From Pseudorhodobacter sp. E13 (GTDB taxonomy: Bacteria; Pseudomonadota; Alphaproteobacteria; Rhodobacterales; Rhodobacteraceae), in the NCBI RefSeq assembly GCF_003991405.1, contig NZ_RPEN01000159.1, positions 124,001-188,000 on the forward strand: DNA of 64,000 nt, read 5' to 3'. The translations under genes and the position numbers were made by a program. Shown here in pieces: positions 48,155 to 53,537 of this stretch. The notes beneath the pieces are model-generated. The model was not told the DNA's origin, ran no database searches, and saw only the letters and a program-made list of their open reading frames with translations. Position 1 is the first letter of the stretch. Each line of letters opens with the position of its first letter.

Positions 48155-48391
48155 ATGGCACCTCCGTTCTATCTGTCAGAGCATGGCACAGCCTGCCGAT
48201 CAATCCCCGCAGGGCTGGAATTTTGTATCAAGCACAATGCCCCGCGCCACCCCAACCAAAGCCGCGACCAAGGGCATGCGTGAAACTACCGTCAAAACCC
48301 GCCCGCCCCCGCGCAAGGGGTTTGACCGCAGGGCGGCGGCCCCGCCATAGTCAAACCATTGATGCAGACCAGCCGCGCGCGGAGATTTCAG

Positions 48392-50452
48392 ATGATGCTT
48401 TCCGAAGACACTGCCCCGATGTTGCCCGCCGATACCCCCTATCTGGATTGGGCACGCCTGCAACAGCAGCCAACCGCAGCGACCGCCTCACAGCTTATTC
48501 CCGCCTTGGTGCGTTTGCAGGCGGATGGCAAGGATACCAGCGCCGCCCTCGCCGCGCTGGCCGATGCGCTTCTGGCGCAAGAGATCTTGATGGATCGCGA
48601 CGATCTGGAGGATCTGGGCCTGCTGGCCGATGCCCCGCAGCGCGCCACCCCGCCCAGCCCGCGTGATATCTTTACCGTTTTCATCGCGGCCCGAGGCTTT
48701 GCCGCCACCCAGTCGCGGCTGTCGTGCGCGGTGGAATTCCTGCACCTTGGCCGCGCGATAGAGGCACCTGAGGCCGCTATTGCGCTGACCCCGGCCCCAG
48801 CGCTGGCCGAAGATACCGCCCCGATCCCGCCCGAAACCCCCATTGTGGCGGTGATTGATGACGGTATCGGCTTTCTCAACACCCGGTTTTGCCGCCGCGA
48901 TCTGCGCCGCCATGCGCCTGCCCGCTATCGCACACGCTTTCATGCGGTCTGGCTGCAAGCCTTTCAGACCATCCCGATGCCAAGCTACAGCCCGGCCTAT
49001 GTGCAGGCCGGACAAGTGCTGCACCGGCGCGATATTGATGCCCTGCTCGCCCTAGGCCCCCGGCTGGAGGAGGAGGACAGCTATCGCCGCCTCAACCGGC
49101 AGCTTCTGGAACCCGGCGCGCATTGTTCGACCGAATTCGGCTTTACCCATGGCACCCATATCCTTGCCCTTGCCGCCGGGGCAGACCCGGAAAGCGATGG
49201 TCCGGTGCAGGATTGGCCGCTTCTGGCCGTGCAATTGCCCCCCGAAGCGGTGGACAATACCGCAGGCACCCAATTGGAACCATGCATCATCGACGCCGTG
49301 CGCTGGATCTTGCGGCAGGCCCGGCGGATGAATGATCACAGCCCGGTGGTCATCAACATCTCTTTCGCCACGTTTGCCGGGCCGAAAGATGGCACCAAAC
49401 CGATTGAGGCGATGGTGAAACATCTGCTGGAACGCTGGCAGGTGAAAACCGGGCGTCAGGCGCGGCTGGTCTTTGCCTTTGGCAACGCGCGGCGCAACCG
49501 GCAAAGCGCCTTTGCCACCCTTGCCCCGCAGGTGGCGCAAAGCGTCGACTGGTGCCTGCAACCCGATGATTTCGCCCCCTCTTACCTTGAACTGAGGCCC
49601 CTGACCCCGGCAGACCTGTCACGCCTGACGCTGACCCTGACCGCGCCGGATGGCCGCGTGCAAGCCCTGCCCCCGATCCCTGCCAATTCCCGGCGCTTGA
49701 TACGGGACGCCCAAGGCCGCAGCATCGGCGCGTTTTATCACGTCGGGGCCAGACCCAGCGCGCCGGGTGTCGTCACCCCGGCCCATGCGGTTCTGGCGAT
49801 GGCGGCCTCAACCGGCGCGCCTGTTACGGCGGCGCATGGGCGCTGGCGGCTGACGCTGGCGGCCACTGGCCCCAACGATCTGCCGATCCGGCTAGAGGTG
49901 CAGCGCGGCGATACCGTCATGGGCTACCGCCTGAACGGACGGCAATCCTATCTGGACGCGCCGCAGGCCTATGGCTGGGATGCGGAAACCGCCGATTACC
50001 GCCAGCCCGACTCCGCAGGCCCCATCACCCGCGCCGCCAGCCATTCCAGCTTTGCCACCGCGCAATCGCCTTGCATCTATACGGTCGGCGCCGCGCGGGG
50101 CGACACACTGGGCCCCTGCCTCTATTCCCCCGATGGCGCGGCATGGACAGTGCCCGGCCCCACGCTTTCGGCAGTGGCAGATCGCGGCACCGCCCTGCGC
50201 GGGCTGGTGGCAAGCGGCACGTTCAGCGGATCGGGCCGCGCGCTCAATGGCACCTCTGCTGCGGCGGGGGTCGCCTCGCGCCTCATCGCGCAGGCCTTTG
50301 CCGATGGCCAGATTCCGCCCCCCCCCGGCATGGCTGAGGCGGCGCATCTGGTCGCCACCTATGGCCCGCAGCCGCAACCGGGACGAACCGCGCGGCAAGG
50401 GGCAGGCGTTCTGGCACCCCTCCGGCAAGCGGTCGCAGTTTCGGTGGTCTGA
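48392..50452 (+). CDS. Subtilisin-like (S8) serine protease, no signal peptide
   Basis: Encodes 686 residues from the ATG at 48392, preceded by GGAG. Catalytic Asp156 (VAVIDDGIG), His253 (HGTHILALAAG) and Ser about 622 (NGTSAAAG) are in the right order with a large gap between His and Ser. No signal peptide or membrane helix is visible, and an unusual N-terminal region (1-145) precedes the catalytic core. Intracellular action is likely unless an alternative export system is used. Confidence 0.88.
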   Translation: MMLSEDTAPMLPADTPYLDWARLQQQPTAATASQLIPALVRLQADGKDTSAALAALADALLAQEILMDRDDLEDLGLLADAPQRATPPSPRDIFTVFIAARGFAATQSRLSCAVEFLHLGRAIEAPEAAIALTPAPALAEDTAPIPPETPIVAVIDDGIGFLNTRFCRRDLRRHAPARYRTRFHAVWLQAFQTIPMPSYSPAYVQAGQVLHRRDIDALLALGPRLEEEDSYRRLNRQLLEPGAHCSTEFGFTHGTHILALAAGADPESDGPVQDWPLLAVQLPPEAVDNTAGTQLEPCIIDAVRWILRQARRMNDHSPVVINISFATFAGPKDGTKPIEAMVKHLLERWQVKTGRQARLVFAFGNARRNRQSAFATLAPQVAQSVDWCLQPDDFAPSYLELRPLTPADLSRLTLTLTAPDGRVQALPPIPANSRRLIRDAQGRSIGAFYHVGARPSAPGVVTPAHAVLAMAASTGAPVTAAHGRWRLTLAATGPNDLPIRLEVQRGDTVMGYRLNGRQSYLDAPQAYGWDAETADYRQPDSAGPITRAASHSSFATAQSPCIYTVGAARGDTLGPCLYSPDGAAWTVPGPTLSAVADRGTALRGLVASGTFSGSGRALNGTSAAAGVASRLIAQAFADGQIPPPPGMAEAAHLVATYGPQPQPGRTARQGAGVLAPLRQAVAVSVV

Positions 50453-50534: not shown

Positions 50535-51623
50535 TTATCGCACCCATTCATCCTTTGCGACTTGCCACAGGTTGGACAGAACCGGTGACGGAGGATCGAC
50601 AAAGGAAACCATGCCCGCGCTTGGCAAAATGCCTTCCAGCGTTTCGAGCGAGAAATCATCTACAAACCCGGTGCCATTGAACTGGCGCACCGGGGTTTCG
50701 GCCTGACCGGACAACCAGTTGATCACCATCTCGCCAATCCCCAGCCCCAGCACGGCACCCGCCATACTGTCCGAGGGGTAATGCACACCGGCGATGGTGC
50801 GGTTGGTGGCAATCCGCGCGGCCAGCCGCATCGGATGGCTGCGCGCCGTGACGGCATCCAAAGCATCCACCGGCCCGCCTGCCTGCAAGGCACTGAACAC
50901 CTGCGCCACGGCAAAGGCCTCGGTCGCGTGGCCGCTGGGCCAACTGCCATGGCCGGGGGTCTGAATGACGGGCTGCACATCGGATGAGGTCTGTATCGGG
51001 CGCGGGAAATCGAAATGCATCTTCAGCCGCATCTCCATCTGCCCCACCATGCGCAACACCGCCCAGATCAGTTCCAGCGACCGTTTGGTCGCCACCCGGT
51101 CCAGATACCCCAGCCCCCCAAAGAATGAGACGATATCGCCGGTCTGCACCTGAATTTCGGCCAGCCGGTCCATCCGCAAATCGGCATAGCTGCGGATCAA
51201 GGACATTTGCGCATCGACAAAGGCCTGATCATAGACCGGGCGCGTCAGGATCACGGCATCCGCCCCGCCAGCGGCCCGCGCCTTCACGATCCCCTTTTGG
51301 GCTGTGCTGATGTCCAGCCCGGCAAGGCAGCCCAGCTCATAATCCAGCACGGCGGCTTGCGGGCCGTCCTGCATCTTGCGAAACGCATCCCAACCGCCGG
51401 GGGTGGCATTGTCAATCGCGCGGCCCCCGACCCCGGTCCATTGCCGCGAAATCCCGTCCCGGGTGGTGGCAAGGGCCAGCGACAGATAAGGCCCCGCCGA
51501 ACCGCCCGCCCCTTGGGTGCCCTGCGTGCCTTGGGTCCCTTGCGTTCCTTGGGTGCCTTGTGTTCCTTGAGTGCCCTGCGTCCCTTGCGTTCCTTGCGTG
51601 CCCTGCGTTCCGGAAAATGACAT
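50535..51623 (-). CDS. PAP2/vanadium-haloperoxidase-fold protein with N-terminal Gly-Thr-Gln repeats
   Basis: Encodes 362 residues from the ATG at 51623 (AGGAG 9 nt ahead). Residues 5-37 are eleven perfect GTQ triplets, then GAGGSAG. The C-terminal domain carries the phosphate/vanadate motifs Lys201-x6-Arg208-Pro209, PSGH (229-232) and Arg275/His281/Asp285. No signal peptide. It could be a vanadium haloperoxidase or a phosphatase; halide-site residues cannot be judged by reading. It is divergent from the SARP-type regulator. Confidence 0.85.
   Translation of the reverse strand: MSFSGTQGTQGTQGTQGTQGTQGTQGTQGTQGTQGTQGAGGSAGPYLSLALATTRDGISRQWTGVGGRAIDNATPGGWDAFRKMQDGPQAAVLDYELGCLAGLDISTAQKGIVKARAAGGADAVILTRPVYDQAFVDAQMSLIRSYADLRMDRLAEIQVQTGDIVSFFGGLGYLDRVATKRSLELIWAVLRMVGQMEMRLKMHFDFPRPIQTSSDVQPVIQTPGHGSWPSGHATEAFAVAQVFSALQAGGPVDALDAVTARSHPMRLAARIATNRTIAGVHYPSDSMAGAVLGLGIGEMVINWLSGQAETPVRQFNGTGFVDDFSLETLEGILPSAGMVSFVDPPSPVLSNLWQVAKDEWVR
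51513..51611 (-). repeat. Eleven tandem 9-bp units encoding Gly-Thr-Gln
   Basis: Eleven consecutive 9-nt units (99 nt) encode (GTQ)11 at the N-terminus of the PAP2-fold protein. The protein repeat is perfect but the codons vary (GGA/GGC/GGG; ACG/ACC/ACT/ACA; CAA/CAG), so the repeat is kept at protein level and is not a fresh slippage product. A Gly-X-Y pattern resembles collagen-like domains. Confidence 0.95.
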
Positions 51624-51711
51624 GCTCAAAAACTCCTGACGGTGACAAAATTGGCCTTTGCAAGCCTAAAAGCCCCTCGCGCGCCAATGCAAACCGCTTT
51701 TGCGCAGGCTG

Positions 51712-51730: not shown

Positions 51731-51869
51731 GACGAAGTAAAGGCACTACCCGCAACGGAAAACTGGTGGTAGGTTGGTCGGGCGCGGTCTGACCGGGCCA
51801 AAAGGGTGGGGCCGCAAAAGCGGCCAGAGTGGGGAAAGCGACCCGTCTTTTGAGGGGGACATTGGGGAT

Positions 51870-53537
51870 ATGCCTGAAGGGCAAGACCATCAAGCGGCGA
51901 CACCATCCGTGGCGATTTCGCTTTACGGGCCATTTGCGGTGCGCGCCCTTGCAAATGATGAGGATCTGACCCCCCGCCCGCATAAGTCGCGGGCTGTGCT
52001 GGCGCTGCTGGCGCTGTCACCGGATTTTCGCCGCACCCGCCGCTGGATCGAAGAACGGTTGTGGAGCGATCGCGCGCCCCAGCAAGCTGCGGGCAGCCTG
52101 CGGCAGGCCTTGGTCGATCTGCGCAAATCGCTGGGGCCCTGTGGTGATATCATCGAGGCGGATCGTGAATGGGTCAGCCTGACCAAAACAGCTGTCCAGA
52201 TCGAGGCGGCAAGCGAAGGCGCGGGTGAGTTGCTGGAAGGCATCTCGGTGCGCGACCCGGCATTTCAGCGCTGGCTCGACTCTGTCCGTCGCCCGCAAGC
52301 CGTGGGGGGGATGCTGCCCGCCGCGCATTTCGCCGGGCTGGCCGCAGCCTTTCCTGCCGCCGAGCTTGAGGCGGAGCCAATCGTCATTTCCTGCGGCACG
52401 GCCAACCTGCCGGGCACCAGTGGCGGGATCGTGGCCGAAATCATCGCCTCGCGCATCGGCGAGGAAATCTCGGACCATGTGACCGCCTGCACCGTCACGC
52501 AACGGCCCAGCGGGGCCGCCGGGCAGAACGGTGCGGCGCAGGGCGGGCCTGTCGCCGATCTGGATGTGACCTGCAATGTGATCGAAGATAACGGCATCTG
52601 TCTGGCCTTTATCAAGGTGGTGCATGTCGCCTCGGGGCGGGTTTTGTTTGCGAAGGATTGCCGCTTTGTCGGCACCGCGACCTCGCTTGTGGGCAGTGAG
52701 GCGCTGATTGGTGCGGCCTTCGAAGCGTCAGAGAAAACCGTTGCCAAGGTGCCGCATGTGCTGGGCCTGTCCCGGATGGCGACCAAATCGGCGGCGCTGG
52801 GGCAATTGGCGCTGCATAAGATGTTTTCCTTTGATGAGGCGCAGCTGAGTCAGGCGGATCGCTTGATGGAACAGGCCTATGAGGTGGAAGGCAACGCCGT
52901 TCATCTGGCGTGGCGCGGCTTGCTTCAGATGGTCAAGGCGATTGAGCTGAGCCAGGCCCAGCGCCCGGAATTGCACGATATGGCCCAAAGCCTGACCAAT
53001 TACGCGATGGAAAGTAAGAATGGCAATTCCACGGTGAAGGCCCTTGTCAGCCAGACCCGCGCGATGCTGTTTGGTGATGCGGTGGCCGCAGGGCAAGCCG
53101 CCGCGCAGGCCCTGGAGGCGAACCCGCGCAACCCCTTCGCGCTGCAAGCGATGGCGGTGGCAAAGATGTTGGCCGGGGAAGGCGAGCAGGCCTATCAGAT
53201 GTCGGCGCTGGGGCGATCCTATGCCAGCCGGTCCACGTTCCGGCATTGGTGGGACGCCCATCATGCGACGGTTTGCGTGGCCACCGGGCGGGTGGATGAG
53301 GCAATCCGCGCCGCCGAGGCCGCCGCTTTTGGCGCGCCCAGCCTGCGGCCCGCCTATCGGTATCTTTTGTCGCTTTATGCCCATCGGGGGGAGTTGGACC
53401 GCGCCGCCCTGATGCAGACCCATCTGGAGAAACTGGAGCCGGGCTTCACGCTGGACCGGATGATTGAGGACCCGGATTACCCGGTGCGAACCTTGCGGAA
53501 AACCGGGTTGCTGAAAGCGTTGAAAAAGCTGCAATAG
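51870..53537 (+). CDS. SARP/BTAD-type transcriptional regulator with TPR-like C-terminus
   Basis: Encodes 555 residues from the ATG at 51870 (GGGGG ahead). An OmpR-type winged helix (about 15-95; YGPFAVRALAN, then QAAGSLRQALVDLRKSLG) is followed by a TolB/FlgO-like middle region (about 150-290) and tetratricopeptide-like helices (about 320-540). This layout is that of SARP/BTAD regulators. It probably controls the divergent PAP2-fold gene. A longer N-terminus from 51774 is possible but lacks homology support. Confidence 0.82.
   Translation: MPEGQDHQAATPSVAISLYGPFAVRALANDEDLTPRPHKSRAVLALLALSPDFRRTRRWIEERLWSDRAPQQAAGSLRQALVDLRKSLGPCGDIIEADREWVSLTKTAVQIEAASEGAGELLEGISVRDPAFQRWLDSVRRPQAVGGMLPAAHFAGLAAAFPAAELEAEPIVISCGTANLPGTSGGIVAEIIASRIGEEISDHVTACTVTQRPSGAAGQNGAAQGGPVADLDVTCNVIEDNGICLAFIKVVHVASGRVLFAKDCRFVGTATSLVGSEALIGAAFEASEKTVAKVPHVLGLSRMATKSAALGQLALHKMFSFDEAQLSQADRLMEQAYEVEGNAVHLAWRGLLQMVKAIELSQAQRPELHDMAQSLTNYAMESKNGNSTVKALVSQTRAMLFGDAVAAGQAAAQALEANPRNPFALQAMAVAKMLAGEGEQAYQMSALGRSYASRSTFRHWWDAHHATVCVATGRVDEAIRAAEAAAFGAPSLRPAYRYLLSLYAHRGELDRAALMQTHLEKLEPGFTLDRMIEDPDYPVRTLRKTGLLKALKKLQ

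Follow-up and report, generated by a model that had tools for sequence, protein, structure and literature searches.

PAP2/vanadium haloperoxidase-fold enzymes of alphaproteobacteria carry lineage-specific homogeneous peptide arrays beside a regulator and a peptidase

Short peptides repeated in tandem are known from tandem-core peptide systems, which include repeated pheromone precursors, RiPPs with repeated cores and His-Xaa-Ser repeat proteins. Bacterial collagen-like proteins (Pfam PF01391; Scl1/Scl2) have glycine at every third residue, and RRNPP proteins are peptide receptors of the TPR type. The locus analysed here resembles each of these in part. Its enzyme has the complete K/R/H/R/H active site in common with class A acid phosphatases and vanadium bromoperoxidases, but differs from both in carrying a peptide array and in having conserved regulator and peptidase partners. 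Its GTQ array has glycine at every third residue, as in the collagen-like proteins; however, an enzyme lies behind the array, and homologous arrays need neither glycine nor a period of three. Identical short units and a nearby peptidase (in Rhizobium also a peptide-modifying enzyme) are shared with tandem-core systems, to one member of which, the His-Xaa-Ser repeat proteins, the array gave a weak match. Here, however, the array sits on a conserved enzyme and the units have no common processing residue. The adjacent TPR-type regulator recalls the RRNPP receptors, whereas no small dedicated precursor gene was seen, and regulators of this type can include a cyclase together with a TolB-like region, as in L008, where both scored under the Pfam cut-off. 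No description of the array family or of the module was found in the portion of the literature that our searches covered, and the combination of a repeat with PAP2 is unusual, as had been suspected.

The window, a stretch of 64,000 nucleotides from Pseudorhodobacter sp. E13, contains a 362-residue open reading frame on the minus strand (50535..51623). It starts with ATG at 51623, behind a Shine-Dalgarno-like AGGAG that was read from the sequence (51633..51637), and ends at 50535. The protein opens with MSFS and eleven perfect GTQ units (51513..51611, minus strand), exactly as the original prediction described it, followed by the PAP2 domain (50712..51032, minus strand). Of the tandem repeats in the window, (GTQ)11 had the highest TRF score, 128, against 56 for the next unrelated repeat. 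Nine of its eleven DNA units were distinct, and all unit-to-unit differences were synonymous and at third codon positions. A search of the same genome for a further GTQ array returned a single match, the known one. The same genome holds a second, diverged module (L144, contig C135), in which (NGGL)6-PAP2 has a papain-family peptidase and a TPR regulator as neighbours.

Convergent with the PAP2 gene is a gene for an S8 subtilase family peptidase with the D/H/S triad present (48359..50452, plus strand; Pfam PF00082, E = 7.3e-9). Divergent from the PAP2 gene is a winged helix/TPR regulator (51774..53537, plus strand), whose true start may be the ATG at 51870. Its own Pfam matches were all below the cut-off; TPR was matched by Pfam in three relatives. 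Homologues of the regulator are annotated as SARP family or winged helix, and PLSDB names the three proteins phosphatase PAP2 family protein, S8 family serine peptidase and SARP family/winged helix regulator, with no remark on the repeat. Nine window neighbours scanned with NCBIfam were metabolic enzymes, a copper ATPase and two genes without a match, with no peptide-modifying family among the nine.

We searched 394 genomes of the same family and found a PAP2 homologue at E <= 1e-10 in 115 of them, at 142 places. The first set took in 100 of these places (98 regions, one with two places, and the window) and five homologues beyond the 142 (L003, L008, L022 and two of G401). It consisted of 105 open reading frames from 87 genomes or records, scoring at least 90 bits against the core profile, and 102 of the 105 had an array (at least 3 copies and at least 9 aa). 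The second set, the remaining 42 places, was examined after the first-set analysis; 41 of the 42 scored at least 90 bits and 39 had an array. A tandem peptide array was thereby present in front of the PAP2 enzyme at 137 of the 142 places. The array-less ones were L071, L110, L269, L283 and L297. L071 looks decayed: its regulator is split, and a short run of GAQ is out of frame with the enzyme. The PAP2 frame of L110 begins right at the end of a contig (a contig end also cuts L022, which is not one of the 142), L269 has only a degenerate repeat (by eye), L283 has no array, and L297 (83 bits, no array) was not counted as a member. Searches at class and phylum level gave 49 loci, some from genomes already used; arrays were found in all 24 PAP2 frames of at least 78 bits and in one of the 25 below (L203, 77.8 bits). 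The score border between carriers and non-carriers is not perfectly sharp because of L297. None of 35 PAP2 relatives on viral contigs had an array (best score 73.9 bits). Under one rule (at least 4 copies and at least 12 aa within the first 120 aa), an array was present in 99 of 105 PAP2 homologues vs 2 of 1337 control frames of the first-set loci. One of the two control positives is a regulator homologue with its own (PSQ)4 array near the N-terminus (L063, ORF 7).

It had been proposed to look for the same Gly-X-Y and PAP2 architecture in related genomes, and to take a repeat that homologues lack, and that varies freely between strains without a conserved length, as a neutral expansion. The outcome differed from what had been expected. 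Nearly all homologues were repeat-bearing (137/142), but the unit was another: there were 101 distinct units in the 141 arrays of both sets, with periods of 2-6 (for example AAQ, EAV, NSQ, DAR, GGGAG, TK, GKE, TPH and NR). GTQ is one example of these arrays, which are homogeneous within a protein, specific to a lineage and mostly N-terminal. The 102 arrays of the first set comprised 77 distinct units; the period was 3 in 70 arrays, 4 in 20, 2 in 8, and 5 and 6 in 2 each. The 39 arrays of the second set comprised 30 units, of which 24 had not occurred in the first, with a period of 3 in 26 arrays, 4 in 7 and 2 in 6.

This diversity bears on the original reading of the repeat as collagen-like, by which a triple helix would trimerise the enzyme. 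GTQ fits Gly-X-Y and the window array reached 25.4 bits with Pfam Collagen, but this is under the cut-off of 27.2. Moreover, 50 of the 141 arrays were free of glycine (33/102 in the first set and 17/39 in the second), and just 56 of 141 combined period 3 with glycine. The collagen reading was rejected at the family level on these counts, and we regard it as very improbable. Oligomerisation by the array as such is still a live idea.

The array started a median of 4 residues past the nearest upstream Met (97 of 102 first-set arrays had one, 88 of the 97 within 15 residues). Most array proteins had only a few residues before the array and no visible export signal (by eye). A sequence-degenerate N-terminal export or packaging signal would agree with this position, with the Tat-like signal that opens L138 and L139 (by eye; both are fused members) and with a type VI ATPase gene beside L219. 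However, the array is not N-terminal in L217, L140 and L201, where a longer stretch lies ahead of it, and no secretion apparatus was recognised among the minority of recurrent neighbour clusters that were scanned, except RTX/Hint-type proteins in one nine-gene cluster. To our knowledge, known degenerate export or packaging signals need no perfect repetition, and we consider this explanation improbable.

The window protein matched Pfam PAP2 (PF01569) with E = 7.9e-14, and Lys201, Arg208, PSGH (229-232), Arg275 and His281 were all found where the original prediction had placed them. The catalytic set, which had been called intact-looking, was intact throughout: K201, R208, H225, H232, R275, H281 and D285 were invariant in 102/102 array proteins of the first set. 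Two positions of PSGH were less strict (S230 in 99/102, G231 in 91/102). The profile match and the K, R, PSGH, R, H set together place the enzyme in the PAP2 superfamily, whose phosphatases and haloperoxidases have these active-site residues in common. Among solved structures an acid phosphatase was the top profile match (7f17, 6e-23), ahead of a vanadium bromoperoxidase (1qi9, 2.7e-12), and haloperoxidase activity is therefore not established. An AlphaFold prediction from five sequences gave an unusable model (pLDDT 35). A vanadium bromoperoxidase-type gene lay on the examined stretch in 15 of 107 loci; L061 was matched to solved bromoperoxidases and the others were called by similarity to L061, and three genes of this type were without a Pfam match. 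Five of 107 loci had an animal-type heme peroxidase (Pfam for one). Examples of these peroxidase-type genes, vanadium or heme, are L061:4159-5766(-), L138:13471-15471(+) and L079:3528-5297(-). Their recurrence suggests a link to halide oxidation.

We compared neighbouring units of the first set at the DNA level. They differed at 293 of 5398 first and second codon positions (5.4%) vs 1849 of 2699 third positions (68.5%), and serine units mixed TCN and AGY codons; amino acids are thus held while codons are free. Codon identity between neighbouring units was lower than in shuffles within the array (720 observed, 939.6 shuffled, sd 20.0, z = -11; 0 of 2000 shuffles as low), and the second set gave the same result (253 vs 346.6, sd 12.6, z = -7.4, 39 arrays). 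Units two and three apart shared codons slightly more than shuffles (z = +3.4 and +3.5 in the first set, +2.1 and +1.3 in the second). The peptide is kept repetitive and the DNA is kept non-repetitive, which is the opposite of slippage. We infer selection or mutational sieving against tandem DNA identity, atop occasional block duplication. The original claim that the repeat is under selection as protein, made for a single gene, thus extends to the whole family.

A neutral, microsatellite-like expansion or a phase-variable contingency repeat would be expected to have near-identical, slippage-prone DNA units, and the codon test, in which neighbouring units were less alike than shuffles in both sets, led us to reject neutral slippage. 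Copies do vary by one or two between close relatives: NSF occurred 5, 6 or 7 times in six Phaeobacter records examined of the 21 listed. No freely drifting, frame-broken or degenerate array was seen in these six. In addition, L054 and L055 have GTQ as the window does, at 62-72% core identity to the window enzyme, so the unit was kept despite 28-38% divergence of the enzyme. Expansion of this kind is hardly credible, and collagen and neutral slippage are both close to excluded as family-wide explanations.

Regularity was high also at the peptide level. Even after extension into half-matching units, 78 of 102 first-set arrays were perfect; the other 24 had at least one deviating residue. The array measured about 28 residues, and copy number dropped as the period lengthened, with a slope of -0.66 (95% -1.02 to -0.25; the interval is wide and the tips are not independent), so that the array leans to keeping its length more than its copy number. 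Any simple repeat could make a disordered, low-complexity tail that serves as a spacer, or as a slippery handle by which protease resistance or sensitivity is set. Such a tail would account for a unit-agnostic, mostly N-terminal array of about 28 aa beside a peptidase, but it explains neither the rarity of single substitutions (5.4% vs 68.5%) nor the perfection of most arrays, and on balance we find it unlikely.

Turnover of the units was analysed in the first set only, on a tree of the core without the array. The unit changed 79 times (minimum 76; shuffles 94.9) and the period 12 times (29.9 in shuffles), so that period is slower to change than unit. The unit was the same in 6 of 8 pairs separated by less than 0.5 substitutions per site, in 6 of 17 at 0.5-0.7 and in 7 of 164 at 0.7-1.2. 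Within one genus (by group code), TGV (L194) stood vs AGV (L193), different throughout. One array, in L220, was a hybrid, (NAH)3(TAQ)4, with nearly identical TAQ DNA units, and its TAQ stretch looks like a recent amplification. New units may arise in this way, by DNA amplification, and would then become codon-scrambled. In Phaeobacter inhibens M647 (L214) the NSF array was kept, the regulator was annotated in two pieces and the PAP2 protein was shorter (360 vs 382-393 aa); this is perhaps a decaying copy.

The partners of the enzyme, which the original prediction had not pointed out, were counted on stop-to-stop open reading frames as same-profile regulators or S8 peptidases within 3 kb. The regulator was near the array PAP2 gene in 100 of 101 first-set loci; in L095, the one locus without it, the flank on one side is 415 bases long. 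S8 was found by profile in 86 of 101 loci. Diverged S8 genes without a profile match were resolved by Pfam in four more (L142, L145, L147, L148), and in three S8 was fused to the array protein (L138:8456-11233(-), L139:6342-9035(-) and L141:2770-4866(-), by Pfam). The PAP2 part of L141 was below the Pfam cut-off, and L138 and L139 also have a trypsin-type gene alongside. In L144 the peptidase is of class C1, by a Pfam match on L023, which is the same locus. A peptidase was detected by profile or Pfam in 94 of 101 loci in total; by eye, L146 has a C1-like and L140 an S8-like gene, L003, L070 and L088 end too soon for a call, and L008 and L157 have no assigned peptidase.

The second set had the regulator in 38 and S8 by profile in 24 of 42 loci, with diverged S8 by Pfam in nine more (L282, L287, L288, L289, L291, L292, L293, L295, L296) and C1 by Pfam in L280, L285 and L290, in total a peptidase in 36 of 42. 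L281, L286 and L294 are C1-like by eye with no Pfam match; L262, L284 and the non-member L297 are also outside the count. In 20 further loci from the class and phylum searches (of which only L193, L196 and L202 belong to the same family), the regulator was near in 20 and S8 by profile in 13. Pfam assigned S8 in L203 and A4 peptidases in L168 and L171. L170 has an M24 peptidase, perhaps incidental, L201 is S8-like and L167 A4-like by eye, and no peptidase was seen in L169. S8 is the usual class, C1 occurs sometimes and A4 outside the family. The S8 partner belongs to the subtilases by profile match and triad: Asp and His were present in 95/95 first-set and outside genes and Ser in 84/95, all 11 others running into the locus end. 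A PDB search with a three-row S8 alignment gave no match. The array carriers form a clade of PAP2/VHPO-fold enzymes with an intact catalytic set, in a conserved regulator/array-PAP2/peptidase module.

Two loci showed further features. L128 has two array-PAP2 genes with S8 neighbours on one stretch, with units SAY and GS. A 974-aa protein with an HEFAH stretch (L008:6723-9644(-)) adjoins the GLGN-array PAP2 gene of Phaeobacter italicus and had no Pfam or NCBIfam match.

The near-constant presence of a peptidase and a TPR-type regulator next to the array, together with units identical within and divergent between lineages, would also suit a tandem precursor. Cutting by the peptidase would turn the array into many copies of one small peptide, which would serve each lineage as a signal of its own, with the TPR regulator as its possible sensor; RRNPP systems and repeated pheromone precursors are precedents. 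In Rhizobium (two records examined of 64, L217 and L218) further operon genes encode a ThiF protein and an aKG-HExxH peptide beta-hydroxylase (TIGR04267, E = 4.7e-21 in the scan of L217). This looks like a peptide-modifying branch of the system and adds to the case for a precursor. A dedicated modification enzyme in the operon, as in RiPP systems, was found there and not among the nine window neighbours scanned. The Rhizobium version (L217:2443-10060 and L218) also has a 73-aa frame that ends in GG, and its array is an imperfect NK.

Covariation with the unit gave a mixed picture of the precursor. The regulator was slightly more similar in same-unit pairs (+0.059, sd 0.084), a weak effect in its favour. 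The S8 peptidases of loci whose units differ were as similar as those of loci sharing a unit (residual -0.003, from 20 same-unit pairs); coevolution of the unit with S8 was tested and not seen. Also against it, there is no common cleavage residue, several units are pure Gly/Ala or dipeptides, copy number leans to a fixed length rather than a fixed dose, and mostly no export signal is visible ahead of the array (by eye). We therefore judge the precursor quite unlikely, and it is, with the low-complexity tail, the main rival of the reading that we prefer.

Four points have to be explained: units match with free choice of unit, length (about 28 residues) is kept more than copy number, the peptidase does not covary with the unit, and a peptidase of one class or another is almost always present. 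A homotypic, unit-agnostic self-association or assembly tag severable by the peptidase fits them best, since a like-with-like contact changes its partner automatically with the unit; we hold it tentatively, as a possible reading. The array of about 28 residues would act as the tag. Units must match and yet their chemistry switches freely; in our proposal each tag pairs with a second copy of its own protein, which switches along with it. A co-encoded peptidase of any class would sever the disordered tag, so that the enzyme may be released or activated; this would explain why unrelated proteases are interchangeable and why S8 shows no unit-specific coevolution. Several observations speak against such a tag. 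The units are chemically diverse (DAR, EAV, GKE, GGGAG, TPH, NR) and a single self-pairing mode is hard to see, 24 of 102 first-set arrays deviate, and L283, L269 and L297 have no proper array. The copy-number slope is as uncertain as stated above, the peptidase may act on something else, and the regulator effect would fit a partner that reads sequence.

A wider formulation, which we consider rather doubtful, is that the arrays are lineage-specific like-with-like peptide codes. They would be selected for perfect self-similarity and not for sequence, kept in non-repetitive DNA, replaced wholesale at lineage splits and served by an interchangeable peptidase, as a self-recognition or assembly code or, more boldly, as a signal of short peptides that the repeat encodes and the TPR regulator reads.

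In summary, the array seems to be a type of protein tag not described before, in which regularity is maintained and no given sequence is. A protein family usually keeps its sequence, or loosely keeps disorder, whereas this one conserves near-perfect periodicity and replaces the sequence. It is a clean natural experiment on what selection sees in a low-complexity tract. It also parallels, in nature, the codon scrambling that engineers apply to genes for repetitive protein polymers. With its conserved layout and exchangeable proteases, the module points to a regulated enzyme system of alphaproteobacteria that has not been described so far.
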